The notes under the pieces are model-generated. The model was not told where the DNA came from. It saw only the letters and a program-made list of their open reading frames with translations, and ran no database searches. A program made the position numbers and the translations under genes. A stretch of DNA of 64,000 nucleotides from Halorussus pelagicus (GTDB lineage: Archaea > Halobacteriota > Halobacteria > Halobacteriales > Haladaptataceae): the NCBI RefSeq assembly GCF_004087835.1, contig NZ_CP035119.1, positions 1,984,001 to 2,048,000 of the forward strand. Reading direction: 5' to 3'. Shown piece by piece: positions 79 to 7,853 of the stretch (position 1 is the first letter of the stretch; each line of letters starts with the position of its first letter).

Positions 79-3000
79 ATGCGCCGGACGTTCCTCACCG
101 ACTGCGCGGCCCGGTCTCGACCGCTGGCCGAACTCTTCGACTCGACGGCGAACGCCTCGCTCCCACCCGAATACGCCCCCGAAGACCTGCTCGCGGACTG
201 GCGAGACGTATTCGACGCCGACGAGGAGTTCCGGGAACGCCTCGAACTCGCGGACCTCACAGTCGAGCGCGTCGGCGAGCGACTTCGAGACGGGGCGGAC
301 GCCTCCGAATCGCGTCCCGAGTCGCTTCCCGAGCCAATCGAAATCGCCGGGCGAATCGTGGACCGCGCAACCGAGTCCGACCGCGGCGAGGCGCTCGCCG
401 AGCGCCACGCCGACTCGCCGTTCGTGGATTTGCTCGCGCCCCTCGCCGCGGCCGTCAGCGAACCAGTCGCGCTCGACGCCGACCGCGCTCCGGCGGCCTT
501 CGAATCGCTGGAAGACTGGCTGTTCGAGCGACTGACGGCGGCGTTCCAGCATCCGCTGTTCATCCTGTTCAAGGCCTATCAGAAGGGGGAGTATCCCGAC
601 CGCGATTTCGCGGACGCGACCGATTCGACCGCGGTCTACGACGAGTTCGTCGCGGCCCACCGCGACTACGAACCCGTCTTCGAGCAGTACCCGGTCTTGG
701 CGAAACTGCTCGGCGTCGTCGCCGAGCAGTGGCGCGAGATGGTCCGCCGACTGGACGACCGAATCGCGGCCGACCGGTCCGACCTCGCGCGACGGTTCAA
801 CGACGGCGAAAAGTTGGGTCGGTTGCGCGACGTGGCGACGCTCTCGGACGACCCCCACGGCGAGGGCGAAATCGTCCTGCGACTCGACTTCGAGCGCGAC
901 TGCTCGGTCGTCTACAAGCCGCGGTCGGTCGGCGGCGAGGCGGCGTTCGGCGCGGTCATCGACTGGACGAACGCCAACGCGGCGGTGCCGGACCTGTACG
1001 TTCCGGCAGTTCTGGACCGCGGGGAGTACGGCTGGATGGAGGTCGTCTCTCACCGACCCTGCGACTCCGCGGCGGGCGTCGGGCGCTTCTACGAGCGAAT
1101 GGGCGCGCTGACCGCGCTGGCGTTCGTTCTCGGTTCGACCGACCTGCACCACGAGAACATCGTGGCGATGGGCGACCATCCCGTCATCGTGGACCAAGAG
1201 ACCGCCCTCTCCCCGCAGGTCGGCACCTCGAACAAGCCGGTCTCGCCCGCGATGGACTCGCTACTGGAAGACTCCGTGTTGAACACGGTGTTGATTCCGT
1301 TTGCGAAGGACTCGGGCGGACCGGACGCCGACCGGACGAGCAACGGACTGACCGACCTCGCGGGCGAACAGCGCCGCGAGAAGCGCCCGAACTTCCGACA
1401 CCCGAACACCGACGCGATGGAGATGGGCTTCGACAAGCCCTACCGACTCGACGGGGAGAACCTGCCCCGATTCGACGGCGAGGTCCGGGGCGTTTCGTCG
1501 CATCTCGACGAACTGAAGCGGGGATTCCGGGCCGTGACTGACGCGATACTCGCCGACCGAGAGGGATTCGCCGGGCCGTCGGGAGCGCTCGCCGCGTTCG
1601 AGGGGACCGACGTGCGATACTTACCGCGCCCGACGAGTCACTACGCCTCGAAGCTTTCCGAAAGCCTCTATTCGTCGCAACTCCGGTCGGGGGTCGGCCG
1701 GTCGCTCGCGCTGGAGTCGCTCTACACGGTGTTCGTGCCGCGGGCCGACGGCGACGCCGACCTCTGGAAACTCGTCTCGACGGAGCAGGCGACGCTCCGG
1801 CGACTCACGATTCCCCGGTTCACGGTCGAAGCGGACGGCCGCGAACTGGCGGACGGCCGCGGGAACCGACCGGGCGTCGCCGTCGAGGAGTCGCCGCTCG
1901 ACCACGCTCGCCGCCGCGTTTCGAACCTCGACGACCACCGGGTCGAGACCCAACTCCGACTGGTGGACCTCGCGTTCACCGGGTCGTCGGTCTCGGACCC
2001 GGTGGCCGCGCCTTCGGACGCGGGGTCGAACTCGATACCGACCGCCGACTCGCCGCGGGAGGTCGTCTCGAACGTCGTGGCGCTGATAGACGAGGCGACG
2101 ACGCGCTACCCCGACGGAACGCTCCGCTGGGCGGAACTGGCCCGGTCGTCGCCGACCGGCCAGTTTCGGGTGCGAGAGCCGACGTTCGACCTCTATCAGG
2201 GGCACGTCGGCGTCGGCCTGTTCCTCGCCGCGGTCGCCGCGGTTCGCGGGGACGACGAACTCGCAGATCGGAGTCGGCGACTCCTGAAACCGGTCCAGTC
2301 GGCCTTCGAGAACGACGAGGAAGACGCCGCCGAGTTGGCTCTCGGCGGGATGGACGGCCACGGGTCAGTCGTCTACGGACTCCTGACTGCGGGCGACCTG
2401 CTCGGGGACGACGACCTCGTGGAGAGCGCGCGAACCATCGCGCGTCGGACGACCGCCGCAGACATCGCCGCCGACGAGAACCTCGACGTGATGGCCGGGT
2501 CAGCGGGCCAACTGCTCGCCCAACTGGCGGTGTACGAGCGGACCGGCGACGAGGCCGCGCTCGAACGCGCGCGGCGGTGCGGCGACCGCCTCCTCGACGC
2601 GACGACGGAGACCGAAGCCGGGTATCGAATCCCGACGGGCGAGGACGGCGACCGGCGGTTCGCCTTCGCGCACGGGGTCGGGGGCATCGGCTACGCGCTC
2701 GTGAGACTCGGGGCGGTCACGGGCGAGGAGACCTACGCCAGCGTCGGCCGCGACGCGCTCCGGTTCGACGCCGAACTCTGGCGGCGCGACGGCGTGTTAC
2801 CGGAGCGCGCAGGCGAGGCGGGCAACGACGATGCGCGCGATGATGGCGCGGACGACGCGGACGAGACAGCGAACGTCTGGGGCTGGTGTAACGGCGTCGC
2901 TGGCGTCGGCACCAGTCGCGTCGCCGTGGCCGACTCGATGGACGACGAGCGCGTCGGGGACCTCTCGGTCCTCCGCGAGGACCTGCGACCGGAACCGAGT

Positions 3001-3282
3001 CTGGAGGACTCACTCTGTTGCGGGTCGGTCGGTCGCGCGCTGTTCCTGCTGGACGCGGGCGAGGTGTTCGAAGACCCCTCGCTGGCCGAGCGCGGCGAGG
3101 CGCTGTTCCAGCGGACCCTCGACCGGGCCGAGCGCGAGGGTCGGGTCCGACTGTCGAACCACCTCCCGATGCTCCCTCGACTCGGCCTGTTCACCGGCGT
3201 CGCGGGCGTGGGCTACGTCGCGCTCCGGTTGGAGGCGCGCGGAACCGGCGTCGAACTCCCGAACGTGACGCGACTGGAGTGA
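79..3282 (+). CDS. lanM: class II lanthipeptide synthetase LanM
   Basis: Bifunctional enzyme that would phosphorylate and dehydrate Ser/Thr in a precursor peptide and then form thioether rings with Cys. The 1067 residues match the usual LanM length. The N-terminal DUF4135 dehydratase shows VVYKPRS (Lys280), DLHHEN (355-360) and VDQE (Asp372), all typical kinase-like motifs. The C-terminal third is a LanC-like cyclase with WCNG (Cys937) and CCG (Cys980-Cys981), giving a probable three-Cys zinc site as in ProcM-type enzymes. The ATG at 79 follows a TATA box by 33 bases. Two likely substrates lie convergently just downstream. No peptidase or transporter is visible, but the cluster may continue to the left of the window. 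The family call is secure; the product is inferred. Confidence 0.95.
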   Translation: MRRTFLTDCAARSRPLAELFDSTANASLPPEYAPEDLLADWRDVFDADEEFRERLELADLTVERVGERLRDGADASESRPESLPEPIEIAGRIVDRATESDRGEALAERHADSPFVDLLAPLAAAVSEPVALDADRAPAAFESLEDWLFERLTAAFQHPLFILFKAYQKGEYPDRDFADATDSTAVYDEFVAAHRDYEPVFEQYPVLAKLLGVVAEQWREMVRRLDDRIAADRSDLARRFNDGEKLGRLRDVATLSDDPHGEGEIVLRLDFERDCSVVYKPRSVGGEAAFGAVIDWTNANAAVPDLYVPAVLDRGEYGWMEVVSHRPCDSAAGVGRFYERMGALTALAFVLGSTDLHHENIVAMGDHPVIVDQETALSPQVGTSNKPVSPAMDSLLEDSVLNTVLIPFAKDSGGPDADRTSNGLTDLAGEQRREKRPNFRHPNTDAMEMGFDKPYRLDGENLPRFDGEVRGVSSHLDELKRGFRAVTDAILADREGFAGPSGALAAFEGTDVRYLPRPTSHYASKLSESLYSSQLRSGVGRSLALESLYTVFVPRADGDADLWKLVSTEQATLRRLTIPRFTVEADGRELADGRGNRPGVAVEESPLDHARRRVSNLDDHRVETQLRLVDLAFTGSSVSDPVAAPSDAGSNSIPTADSPREVVSNVVALIDEATTRYPDGTLRWAELARSSPTGQFRVREPTFDLYQGHVGVGLFLAAVAAVRGDDELADRSRRLLKPVQSAFENDEEDAAELALGGMDGHGSVVYGLLTAGDLLGDDDLVESARTIARRTTAADIAADENLDVMAGSAGQLLAQLAVYERTGDEAALERARRCGDRLLDATTETEAGYRIPTGEDGDRRFAFAHGVGGIGYALVRLGAVTGEETYASVGRDALRFDAELWRRDGVLPERAGEAGNDDARDDGADDADETANVWGWCNGVAGVGTSRVAVADSMDDERVGDLSVLREDLRPEPSLEDSLCCGSVGRALFLLDAGEVFEDPSLAERGEALFQRTLDRAEREGRVRLSNHLPMLPRLGLFTGVAGVGYVALRLEARGTGVELPNVTRLE

Positions 3283-3290
3283 GGAACCGT

Positions 3291-3332
3291 CGCTCGCGCT
3301 ACCGAATAGAGCGCGGGAGCGCCCCGAAAAAA
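3291..3332. terminator. shared terminator region between lanM and precursor A
   Basis: An imperfect hairpin (CGCTCGCGCT at 3291-3300 pairing with 3310-3321, with a two-base bulge) is followed by A6 at 3327-3332. Read on the minus strand this is a T6 run 26 bases after the stop of precursor A. Archaeal termination usually needs only a T run, so the run probably ends the leftward transcript and the hairpin may serve the rightward one. Confidence 0.35.
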
Positions 3333-3357
3333 GACTGGCGACGAGTCCGTCCGGCGT

Positions 3358-3510
3358 TCAGAACTCCATCTCGTCGTCCTTGCCCGAACCGATACAGACG
3401 GGTTTGTCCGAGATGTAACAGCCAGTGGAGCCGATGACGGCGCGGTCGTCGGTCTCATCGTGGGACGGTTCGTACTCCGCTTCGAGTGAAGTGGTGATGC
3501 TTCGTGACAT
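3358..3510 (-). CDS. putative lanthipeptide precursor A (50 aa)
   Basis: A 50-codon gene on the strand opposite lanM, ATG at 3510 and TGA at 3358-3360. The leader is acidic and includes EYEPSHDETDDRAVIGS; the core reads TGCYISDKPVCIGSGK and the peptide ends DDEMEF. Ser28, Thr29, Ser34, Cys31, Cys39 and Ser42 could form lanthionine-type rings. It matches precursor B at 35 of 50 positions: the leader and tail are nearly identical while the core differs, which is the usual sign of a RiPP precursor pair. There is no double-glycine cleavage motif. It has its own TATA box. The role is inferred from the neighbouring LanM and this conservation pattern. Confidence 0.85.
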   Translation of the reverse strand: MSRSITTSLEAEYEPSHDETDDRAVIGSTGCYISDKPVCIGSGKDDEMEF

Positions 3511-3539
3511 TGCATATCAAACTCATGCCCTACATGGAC

Positions 3540-3545
3540 ATAAAA
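3540..3545 (-). promoter_or_regulatory. TATA box of precursor A
   Basis: TTTTAT on the minus strand (ATAAAA on plus), 30-35 bases upstream of the precursor A ATG. The same hexamer occurs at almost the same distance (29 bases) before precursor B, which supports both as real and separately transcribed genes. The surroundings are clearly AT-richer than the rest of the window. Confidence 0.55.
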
Positions 3546-3604
3546 CTAGGGTAATTATTTACGAAATTATACATCCGGGACACTGCTGTCGCAGGGACGG
3601 AGCT

Positions 3605-3621
3605 GTCGAGCGTCGCTCGAC
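3605..3621. terminator. hairpin between the two precursor genes
   Basis: GTCGAGCG, one base, then CGCTCGAC form a perfect 8-bp stem, 49 bases downstream of the precursor B stop. It could end or stabilise the precursor B transcript. No T run follows directly, so a terminator role is only suggested. Confidence 0.3.
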
Positions 3622-3669
3622 GGTCCGAAGCGAGGGCGACTGAGACCGTCCCCGTGGAGAACTCCGCGG

Positions 3670-3822
3670 TTAAAATTCCATCTCGTCGTCTTCGCCCGGA
3701 CTACCGCAAATCGGGTCCATCGAGGCACCACAGATCGAACTACCGATGACGGCGCGGTCGTCAGTCTCGTCGTGGGACGGTTCGTACTCCGATTCGAGTG
3801 AGGCGGTTGAGTCTCGTGACAT
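3670..3822 (-). CDS. putative lanthipeptide precursor B (50 aa)
   Basis: Second 50-codon gene, ATG at 3822 and TAA at 3670-3672. It has the same leader block as precursor A (EYEPSHDETDDRAVIGS) and the same DDEMEF end, around a different core, SICGASMDPICGSPGE. Cys31 and Cys39, and Ser28 and Ser34, fall at the same positions as in precursor A, so a common ring topology is likely. Cys and Ser are otherwise scarce in the peptide. It is transcribed leftward from its own promoter, separately from lanM. The peptide modification is inferred, not seen. Confidence 0.85.
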   Translation of the reverse strand: MSRDSTASLESEYEPSHDETDDRAVIGSSICGASMDPICGSPGEDDEMEF

Positions 3823-3850: not shown

Positions 3851-3857
3851 ATAAAAA
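3851..3857 (-). promoter_or_regulatory. TATA box of precursor B
   Basis: TTTTTAT on the minus strand, 29-35 bases before the precursor B ATG, matching the position of the TATA box of precursor A. It lies in the 216-base AT-rich region divergent to hyuA. Confidence 0.55.
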
Positions 3858-4038: not shown

Positions 4039-6141
4039 GTGACAGACCGGACCGCAAACGACCAGACTCGGACCGTAAACGACCGAATCCGCGTCGGCGC
4101 GGACGTGGGCGGCACGTTCACCGATGTCGTCTTGCTCACCGCCGAGGACGAACTCGTCACCGCGAAGGTCCCGACCACGGACGACCAGAGCGAGGGGGTC
4201 CTCGACGGTATCCGAAAGGCCTGCGAGAAGGCCGACGTGGACCCCGAGGAAATCGACGCCTTCTCCCACGCGATGACGGTCTCGACGAACGCGCTCCTCG
4301 AAGGAACCGGGGCTAGAACCGCGCTCGTCACGACCGAGGGCTTTTGCGACGTGCTGGAAATCGGCCGACAGGACCGCCCCGCGCTCTACGACTTGGACGC
4401 CGAGCGACCCGACCCGCTGGTGCCCCGCCACAGGCGCTTCGAAATCGCGGAGCGCGCCACGCCCGAGGGTGTCGAAGTCGAACCCGACGCGAATTCGGTC
4501 CGGAACCTCGCGGACCGAATCCGCGACTCGGACGCAGAGAGCGTGGCGGTCTCGCTGCTCCACGCCTACGCCCACCCCGAGAACGAGCGACGCGTGGCCC
4601 GAATCCTCCGCGAGGAACTCGACGCGCCGGTCTCGGTCTCCCACGAAGTTCTCGCGGCGTTCCGGGAGTACGAGCGCACCGCGACGACCGCCGTGGACGC
4701 CTACGTGACGCCGAAAATCGACGCCTACCTCGGCCGACTGGTCGAGCGCGCGGCGGCGGCCGGACTTCCCGCACCGCTCGTGATGCAGTCGAACGGCGGC
4801 ATCGCCGACGCCGCGACCGTCCGCGAACACGCCGTCACGACCTGTCTCTCCGGTCCCGCCGCGGGGGTGGTTGGCGCGGACGCGACCGCGAAGGGAGTGG
4901 CCGCGGAAGATGGAGGCGCGGACGCGACTGCAAAGAGAGCGGCCGCGGAGTCCGTTTCGGACTCCGCGGGCCTCGTCACGTTCGACATGGGCGGCACCTC
5001 CAGCGACGTGAGTCTCGTCCGGGACGGCGAAGTCGAGCGCACGACCGAGGCCGAAATCGGCGACCGGCCGGTCGGCGTCCCGATGGTGGACGTGACGACG
5101 GTCGGCGCGGGCGGCGGGAGCGTCGCGCGAGTGGACGCGGGCGGCGCGCTCCGGGTCGGTCCCGAGTCGGCGGGCGCGGACCCCGGCCCGGCCTGCTACG
5201 GGAAGGGCGGGATTGAACCGACCGTCACCGACGCGAACGCCGTGTTGGGCTACCTCGGCGGCGACACCGCGCTCGGCGGGGAACTCTCGCTGGACCTCGA
5301 CGCCGCCCGCGACGCGCTGGCAGACCTCGCCGACGAGGCCGACCTCTCTGGGCCTGTCGAGGCGGCCCGCGGCGTCTATCGCGTAGCGAACGCCAACATG
5401 ACTCGCGCAGTCCGGGCGGTGACGGTCGAGCGCGGCCGGGACCCCCGGAACTTCGCGCTGGCGGCGTTCGGCGGCGCGGGACCGATGCACGCCGCGGCGC
5501 TCGCCGAGCGCCTCAACGTGGGCCGAGTCGTGATTCCGCGGGCCTGCGGCGTCCTCTCGGCGTTCGGCCTGCTCGCGGCCGACGAGACCCGCGACGCGGT
5601 CCGGACCTACCGGACGACGCTGGCGGAGGCCGATTCGGACACCATCGAGGGCGTCCTCGCGGACCTCGCCGACGAGGCGCGGGCCGACCTCCGGGGCCCC
5701 GACACCGCCACCGTCTTGCGGGAGGCCGACCTCCGCTACGCGGGCCAGAGCTTCGAGTTGGCGGTCGAAGTCGGCGATGCCTTCGACCCCGAAATCGTGG
5801 CCGAGCAGTTCCACGAGACCCACGAGTCCGCTTCGGGCTACCGGATGGACGAGGCGGTCGAACTCGTCGGCCTGCGCGCGCAGGCGACCGTCGCGCGCGA
5901 GACGCCCGCGGTGGCCTACGAAGGCGCGGGCGAGGCGCGCGTCGGCGAGCGCGAGGCCCACTTCGGCGGGCAACGCCGCGAAACGCCGATTTACCGCCGG
6001 GAAGCGCTTCCGGCCGGGCGAGAGTTTGCTGGTCCCGCAATCTGCGAGCAGGCCGACAGCACGGTGGTCGTGCCGCCAGCGTGGCGGGCCGCGGTCCGCG
6101 ACGACGGAACGCTGGTGCTGGAACGGGAGGCCGGAGAATGA
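4039..6141 (+). CDS. hyuA: hydantoinase/oxoprolinase subunit A (HyuA)
   Basis: ATP-dependent hydantoinase or 5-oxoprolinase alpha subunit, acting with HyuB. The N-terminal actin-like ATP-binding motif is GADVGGTFTDVV, and FDMGGTSSDVS is the second phosphate motif; the C-terminal hydantoinase A region ends near residue 680. I chose the GTG at 4039 because GGAGGG lies 8 bases upstream and the product then starts close to the family N-terminus; the frame stays open back to 3895. Residues about 275-310 hold a non-family insertion with two ADATAK repeats and a perfect palindrome in the DNA. The stop overlaps the hyuB ATG. The substrate (oxoproline, hydantoin or other) cannot be told. Confidence 0.9.
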   Translation: MTDRTANDQTRTVNDRIRVGADVGGTFTDVVLLTAEDELVTAKVPTTDDQSEGVLDGIRKACEKADVDPEEIDAFSHAMTVSTNALLEGTGARTALVTTEGFCDVLEIGRQDRPALYDLDAERPDPLVPRHRRFEIAERATPEGVEVEPDANSVRNLADRIRDSDAESVAVSLLHAYAHPENERRVARILREELDAPVSVSHEVLAAFREYERTATTAVDAYVTPKIDAYLGRLVERAAAAGLPAPLVMQSNGGIADAATVREHAVTTCLSGPAAGVVGADATAKGVAAEDGGADATAKRAAAESVSDSAGLVTFDMGGTSSDVSLVRDGEVERTTEAEIGDRPVGVPMVDVTTVGAGGGSVARVDAGGALRVGPESAGADPGPACYGKGGIEPTVTDANAVLGYLGGDTALGGELSLDLDAARDALADLADEADLSGPVEAARGVYRVANANMTRAVRAVTVERGRDPRNFALAAFGGAGPMHAAALAERLNVGRVVIPRACGVLSAFGLLAADETRDAVRTYRTTLAEADSDTIEGVLADLADEARADLRGPDTATVLREADLRYAGQSFELAVEVGDAFDPEIVAEQFHETHESASGYRMDEAVELVGLRAQATVARETPAVAYEGAGEARVGEREAHFGGQRRETPIYRREALPAGREFAGPAICEQADSTVVVPPAWRAAVRDDGTLVLEREAGE
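4943..4969. repeat. perfect palindrome inside hyuA
   Basis: A 12-bp arm (CCGCGGAGTCCG), a 3-base TTT loop and a perfect 12-bp complement. It encodes a Ser/Ala/Asp-rich stretch (ESVSDSAG) in a linker that interrupts the conserved HyuA sequence. Two similar elements lie in hyuB. Confidence 0.7.
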
Positions 6142-7853
6142 CCGACGCGGACCTCGACCCGGTGGAACTCGAAATCCTCCGGAACCAACTGGAGAGCGTC
6201 GCCGAGGAGATGGGGAAGGTCCTGATTCGGGGAGCGTACTCGCCGAACATCAAGGAGCGGCGGGACTGCTCGACGGCGCTGTTCGACGCCGAGGGGCGAC
6301 TGGTCGCGCAGGCCGAACACATCCCGGTCCACCTCGGCGCGATGCCCGAAGCGGTCCGAGCGGTGCTGGAACTGGACCCCGAACCCGGCGACACGTTCGT
6401 GGTCAACGACCCCTTCGATGGCGGGACACACCTGCCCGACGTGACGCTGGTCTCGCCGCTCGCGCCCGAATCGGCAGTTGCCGATTCGGGTGCCGAAAGC
6501 GACGACGCGCACGAAGCGACCGACGCGAGTCGGGAAATCGTCGGCTACGCCGTCTCGCGCGCCCACCACGCCGACGTTGGCGGAATGTCTCCGGGGAGCA
6601 TGCCCGCGGGCGCTCGGGAGATTTATCAGGAGGGCCTGCGCCTGCCGCCGGTCCGCCTCGTCGCGGGCGGCGAACTCGTCGAGGACGTACGCGACCTCAT
6701 TCTGGCCAACGTCCGGACGCCCGAGGAGCGCCGCGCGGACCTCCGCGCCCAGATGGCCGCCAACGACCGCGCCGAGGAGCGCGTCGGCGAACTGCTGGCC
6801 GACCACGGCGACCGCCTGCTGGCCGCCTTCGACGCGGTGATAGACTACTCCCGCGAGCGCGTCGAGACGGAACTGGCTGACCTGCCCGATGGCGAATACA
6901 CCGCGCGCGACTTCTTGGAGGGCGACGGGGTCTCCGAGAGTGAAGCGAACGGAGGCTCGTCAGACCGTAGGTCTGACGGTGTGAGCGACGACGACGTGCC
7001 AATCGAAGTGACGGTCGAAATCGACGGCCCCTCGCTTTCGGTCGATTTCTCGGGCACCGCGGGACAGGTGCCGGGCAACCTCAACGCACCGCTCGCGGTC
7101 GCCAAGAGTGCGGTCTACTTCGTCGTCCGGTGCGTGACCGACCCGGATATTCCGCCGAACCACGGGTGCTACGCGCCGGTCTCGGTCAGCGCGCCCGAGG
7201 GGAGTCTGTTGAACCCCGGCGCGCCCGCCGCGGTGGTCGGCGGCAACGTCGAGACCAGTCAGCGCGTGACCGACGTGGTGTTCCGGGCGCTCGCCGAGGC
7301 GGTGCCTGAGCGCGTTCCGGCGGCCGGGCAGGGGACGATGAACAACCTGATTATCGGGAGTCGCGCGGGCGACTTCACCTACTACGAAACCATCGGCGGC
7401 GGGGCGGGCGCGCGCCCGACGGGCGACGGCACCGACGGCGTGCAGGTCGGAATGACCAACACGCTGAACACGCCGGTCGAGGCACTGGAAGCGGAGTACC
7501 CGCTCCGAGTCGAACGCTACGCGCTCCGCCCCGACACCGGGGGCGAGGGCCGCCACCGCGGCGGTCTCGGACTGGAGCGAAGTGTCACCGTCGAGGAGCG
7601 CGCAACCGTCTCGCTTCTGACGGAGCGCCGCCGCCACGCGCCGCAGGGTCTCGACGGCGGCGGCGCGGGCGCGCTCGGCGAGAACCGCATCGACGGCGAG
7701 CGCGTCGGCGCGAAGACGACCCGCGAAGTCGAATCCGGAACGACCGTCACGGTGCTGACGCCCGGCGGCGGCGGTTACGGCGACCCGAGCGAGCGGGCCG
7801 ACGAGGCCCGCGAGTGTGACCGGAGGGAGGGGAAAGTGACGGACGAGGAGTGA
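6138..7853 (+). CDS. hyuB: hydantoinase/oxoprolinase subunit B (HyuB)
   Basis: Beta subunit of the HyuAB ATP-dependent hydantoinase/oxoprolinase, 571 residues, near the family length. The family N-terminus ELEILRNQLESVAEEMG and the C-terminal LTPGGGGYGDP block are clear. The ATG at 6138 overlaps the hyuA TGA by four bases, so translation is coupled and the two subunits should be made together. Two Ser/Asp-rich inserts (about residues 109-130 and 270-290) each coincide with a perfect inverted repeat in the DNA, and they interrupt otherwise conserved sequence. No other pathway gene sits nearby, so the substrate is open. Confidence 0.92.
   Translation: MTDADLDPVELEILRNQLESVAEEMGKVLIRGAYSPNIKERRDCSTALFDAEGRLVAQAEHIPVHLGAMPEAVRAVLELDPEPGDTFVVNDPFDGGTHLPDVTLVSPLAPESAVADSGAESDDAHEATDASREIVGYAVSRAHHADVGGMSPGSMPAGAREIYQEGLRLPPVRLVAGGELVEDVRDLILANVRTPEERRADLRAQMAANDRAEERVGELLADHGDRLLAAFDAVIDYSRERVETELADLPDGEYTARDFLEGDGVSESEANGGSSDRRSDGVSDDDVPIEVTVEIDGPSLSVDFSGTAGQVPGNLNAPLAVAKSAVYFVVRCVTDPDIPPNHGCYAPVSVSAPEGSLLNPGAPAAVVGGNVETSQRVTDVVFRALAEAVPERVPAAGQGTMNNLIIGSRAGDFTYYETIGGGAGARPTGDGTDGVQVGMTNTLNTPVEALEAEYPLRVERYALRPDTGGEGRHRGGLGLERSVTVEERATVSLLTERRRHAPQGLDGGGAGALGENRIDGERVGAKTTREVESGTTVTVLTPGGGGYGDPSERADEARECDRREGKVTDEE
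6465..6490. repeat. perfect palindrome inside hyuB (first)
   Basis: CCCGAATCGGCA, a 2-base GT loop and a perfect 12-bp complement. It encodes PESAVADSG at the start of an acidic insertion in HyuB. Confidence 0.7.
6958..6978. repeat. perfect palindrome inside hyuB (second)
   Basis: CGTCAGACC, a GTA loop and a perfect 9-bp complement. It encodes part of the hydrophilic insert SSDRRSDGVSDDD in HyuB. The arm CGTCAGACC also occurs at 31530 and in the dcd gene near 40287. Confidence 0.65.

Follow-up and report, generated by a model that had tools for sequence, protein, structure and literature searches.

A pel lanthipeptide locus in Halorussus pelagicus: the pellan precursor and a probable second substrate of the same LanM

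Our analysis showed that the archaeal LanM locus opening a 64,000-nucleotide stretch of the Halorussus pelagicus genome (the whole stretch analysed, hereafter the window) is almost certainly the pel lanthipeptide cluster of H. pelagicus RC-68, or that of a near-identical strain, and that its second precursor gene probably codes for another substrate of the same enzyme. The pel cluster of RC-68 was described by Song et al. in 2025 as the source of pellan, with the PelA core STGCYISDKPVCI (PMC12144867). Expression of the cluster in Haloferax volcanii yielded pellan, which has intertwined thioether rings and two dehydrations within Thr2, Cys4, Ser7 and Cys12; the recombinant cells carrying pel showed increased motility, a larger share of rods and a raised level of the archaellin transcript flgA1 (PMC12144867). 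In the window, residues 28-40 of the product of the ORF at 3358-3510 are identical to this core over all 13 residues, and PMC12144867 is the only item in the literature searched that contains this string. The locus shares with the published cluster the core, a class II LanM and the genus, and we found no difference for the first peptide. The lanthipeptide system here is already known through the published pellan. The initial annotation, made from the sequence alone, correctly recognized class II lanthipeptide precursors beside a LanM, the first of them being the experimentally demonstrated pellan precursor, but erred in calling that peptide overlooked (PMC12144867). Its description of the peptides as unusual is only partly right because, as regards shortness and acidity, they follow the norm of haloarchaeal lanthipeptide precursors, which have a median length of 51 aa (PMC12144867).

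The gene at 79-3282 on the plus strand (a pelM-type lanM) codes for a 1067-aa protein that is, judging by its domains, kinase-like site and predicted zinc ligands, a class II lanthipeptide synthetase (LanM). The product scores 621 bits against TIGR03897, twice the cut-off of 304, and matches PF13575 (E 1.3e-97) and PF05147 (E 7.6e-40) with the domains in order (NCBIfam, Pfam): a dehydratase domain (DUF4135, residues 204-583) is fused to a LanC-like cyclase domain (residues 703-1054). It aligns with LicM2 (6st5) over 865 residues and, in the dehydratase domain, with CylM (5dzt). The LicM2 alignment places kinase-like residues at K280, D355, H357, N360 and D372, in motifs corresponding to those of the kinase-like active site studied in CylM (Lys274, Asp347, His349, Asn352 and Asp364). 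For the cyclase domain, the same alignment gives three zinc ligands, C937, C980 and C981, in the motifs WC(937)NG and C(980)C(981)G, where C981 replaces the His of LicM2. This CCG variant is a mark of the ProcM-like LanMs and has been proposed to accompany a broad substrate range. Since it was present in all seven of the LanMs aligned, including three paralogs from the same genome, it is not peculiar to the pel locus. The ProcM-like LanMs of the prochlorosins resemble the pel LanM both in this three-cysteine motif and in having more than one substrate gene per enzyme, but they serve dozens of precursors with a Nif11-type leader, whereas pel combines a short haloarchaeal leader with two precursors.

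Convergent to lanM on the minus strand, as originally annotated, lie two 50-codon genes whose starts are 312 bases apart: pelA at 3358-3510, coding for a leader (residues 1-27), the pellan core (28-40) and a follower tail (41-50), and a second precursor gene at 3670-3822, identified by its likeness to PelA, with the peptide MSRDSTASLESEYEPSHDETDDRAVIGSSICGASMDPICGSPGEDDEMEF and the predicted core SSICGASMDPICG (residues 28-40). As in LanA precursors, these are short ORFs beside lanM with a conserved leader and a variable core containing Ser/Thr and Cys. Other particulars of the initial annotation hold equally: 35 of the 50 residues are the same in both peptides, among them the block EYEPSHDETDDRAVIGS at residues 12-28 and the DDEMEF tail, both have Cys31 and Cys39 in the alignment, and their genes have matching TATA boxes. 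The pelA box (TTTTAT, 3540-3545) and that of the second gene (TTTTTAT, 3851-3857), both on the minus strand, start 35 bases 5' of the ATG, so that TTTTAT stands at -35/-34 in both; among random positions of the window, only about 0.1% have a TATA-like box in that slot. In other genomes, the homologs carry a similar box at -31 to -34, with a weaker version, CTTATG, in the genome G022. A search of the same genome with the second peptide retrieved PelA with an E-value of 2.3e-17. The DNA of the two genes is 73% identical within the ORFs as against 30-37% in the 60-base flanks, which is near random; hence, it is the precursor frames that are conserved and not the region. The small frames matched no family model, as might be expected of chance ORFs or of some other small-protein family that the LanM does not modify. 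However, pellan has been published from the very same core, which refutes such a reading for pelA, and the frames are conserved beside orthologous LanMs, leaving it a negligible probability for the locus. Next to the precursors, we also observed a hydantoinase/oxoprolinase A and B pair (window 4039-7853, plus strand), with hyuA likewise kept as a neighbor in the genome G024 and in H. halobius.

We found orthologous LanMs, 60-77% identical and accompanied by convergent precursors, in four other Halorussus genomes: H. halobius (G015) has two precursors, while G024, G022 and G011 have one each, that of G011 being tailless. Across seven precursors C31 and C39 are invariant, with S34 and P37 kept in six. 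No full-length relative outside Halorussus was detected among 392 genomes of the order; in a collection of genome contigs, a scan with the single peptide gave no match and one with the alignment recovered only H. halobius. Weak precursor matches off the orthologous loci (E 5e-4 to 6e-3) extended over just 18-29 residues and for the most part lay in long frames; we took them as chance, the exception being the G011 sequence, which is a real, tailless precursor.

The identity between the two window peptides is unevenly spread, with 23 of 27 residues shared in the leader and 5 of 13 in the core. Nevertheless, the predicted second core keeps Ser/Thr29, Cys31, Ser34 and Cys39, all of the ring-forming positions, and also Pro37. 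The replacement rate between the two copies peaks in the core, and both leader (pS 0.25 versus pN 0.10) and tail (pS 0.64 versus pN 0.12) show fewer replacement than synonymous changes. With the ring positions kept and leader and tail apparently under selection, the second peptide probably serves the same LanM as a further substrate, with the same ring pattern, and we infer that the pel enzyme processes it. The second precursor goes unmentioned in the main text of PMC12144867, SSICGASMDPICG is absent from the main texts searched, and those texts name no product of the gene.

These patterns bear on whether the second gene might instead be a duplicate in decay, without a mature product, and pelA the only working precursor. 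Such a situation would fit pellan being the sole pel product reported in the text of PMC12144867, as well as the single precursors of G024 and G022. Yet the frame is intact and its TATA-like box equally placed, the leader and tail are constrained with every ring-forming position kept, and H. halobius also has two precursors; we accordingly regard decay as unlikely, at perhaps the level of a minor contender. A different arrangement is known from haloduracin, a two-component lanthipeptide whose two peptides act jointly, and roseocin is likewise described as two-component. One LanM with two precursors that share a leader and differ in their cores, recurring in two species, is what such a pair would look like. 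Both window cores, however, space their Ser/Thr and Cys residues identically, and thus look like variants of one shape rather than an alpha/beta pair, and G024 and G022 make do with a single precursor, so that joint action appears quite improbable.

The published core starts after Gly27 and ends at Ile40 of PelA, which puts Ser28 within the core and means that the tail, residues 41-50, is cut off. Glu47 and Phe50 of this tail are invariant in six homologs. In contrast, the G011 precursor (L065:3151-3267, MSRDTITAVEAEYEPETDEPKPESSSHRGTCVHGSLACM) lacks it and ends one residue past the last Cys, like pellan itself. Given its absence from both pellan and the G011 precursor, the tail is best seen as a removed follower with which at least one relative has dispensed, its follower role being suggested by this comparison. 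More tentatively, and with somewhat less than even confidence in the combination, we propose that 3670-3822 yields a second, undescribed lanthipeptide and that the tail is a true follower, either aiding the enzyme or blocking activity until it is trimmed. If true, this would represent a precursor design, with leader, core and follower, that departs from what is usual among class II lanthipeptides.

Upstream of lanM, the window genome and G024 share an ABC transporter pair (an ATPase and an ABC-2 permease, 84% and 73% identical between the two), which might export the product. No peptidase domain was matched in this pair, and in G022 and H. halobius the 16-kb stretch surrounding the locus showed no copy of it. 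We identified no protease gene among the scanned neighbors of lanM, which accords with the suggestion, published for other archaeal lanthipeptides, that trimming involves proteases encoded beyond the cluster (PMC12144867). A T2SSE/T2SSF neighborhood of pel is common to several Halorussus, and was considered because the cluster affects motility; since gene position by itself gives no indication of function, we set aside a functional link to these pilus/secretion genes. The pel genes of G022 are flanked by a T2SSE ATPase gene on one side and a T2SSF gene on the other; the orthologs of these two genes sit side by side in the window genome, upstream of the ABC transporter (L024:5714-14445 and L019:2118-6827). 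G022 further contains the start of T2SSF in a 42-aa copy (L024:11648-11773), perhaps an insertion or rearrangement scar, and, adjoining pel, a 90-aa ORF (L024:12109-12381, minus strand) with a signal-like start, a Cys-rich end CCVYDCSDCPYDCYDGCRCAG and no Pfam match. The T2SSE beside pel in H. halobius appears cut, its N-terminal part continuing into a frame that bears a phage integrase domain (L025:12542-14488, plus strand).

Besides pel, the window genome has three further LanM loci. Beside one of these LanMs is a 49-aa ORF (L022:10144-10293, plus strand; G000:C1 about 2,913,100) ending in GCGFTCSPFSSW, identical to the archalan alpha core of H. salinus; by this match, the window strain may also be a producer of the anti-archaeal archalan alpha. 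Candidate precursors are also seen beside the two other LanMs of this genome, namely MSANNNVKAQFENQYSRDDPDEQTAEYIPPTLTMGCGSY (L020:9516-9635, minus strand) and a 62-aa ORF ending in CHSNPVCTFCGPEDSDA (L021:9059-9247, minus strand). The archalans alpha, beta and gamma of Halorussus salinus (PMC10105419, PMC12144867) are, like pellan, class II lanthipeptides of haloarchaea that LanMs produce from precursors of short length, but their cores differ from those of pel, with the alpha core encoded elsewhere in the window genome.

Taken together, we envisage that PelM would bind the acidic N-terminal leader of PelA and phosphorylate and eliminate Thr29 and Ser34 (Thr2 and Ser7 of the core), after which its zinc cyclase would add Cys31 and Cys39 to the dehydro residues to form the two thioether rings. 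Cleavage behind Gly27 and behind residue 40, by proteases whose genes probably lie outside the cluster, would next remove the leader and the tail ending in DDEMEF to give pellan. A sister peptide from the second gene, its ring-forming positions unchanged, would pass through this LanM as well. A reading of the sequence alone had thus found a real biosynthetic cluster; its product is known by now and seems to influence the motility of archaea.
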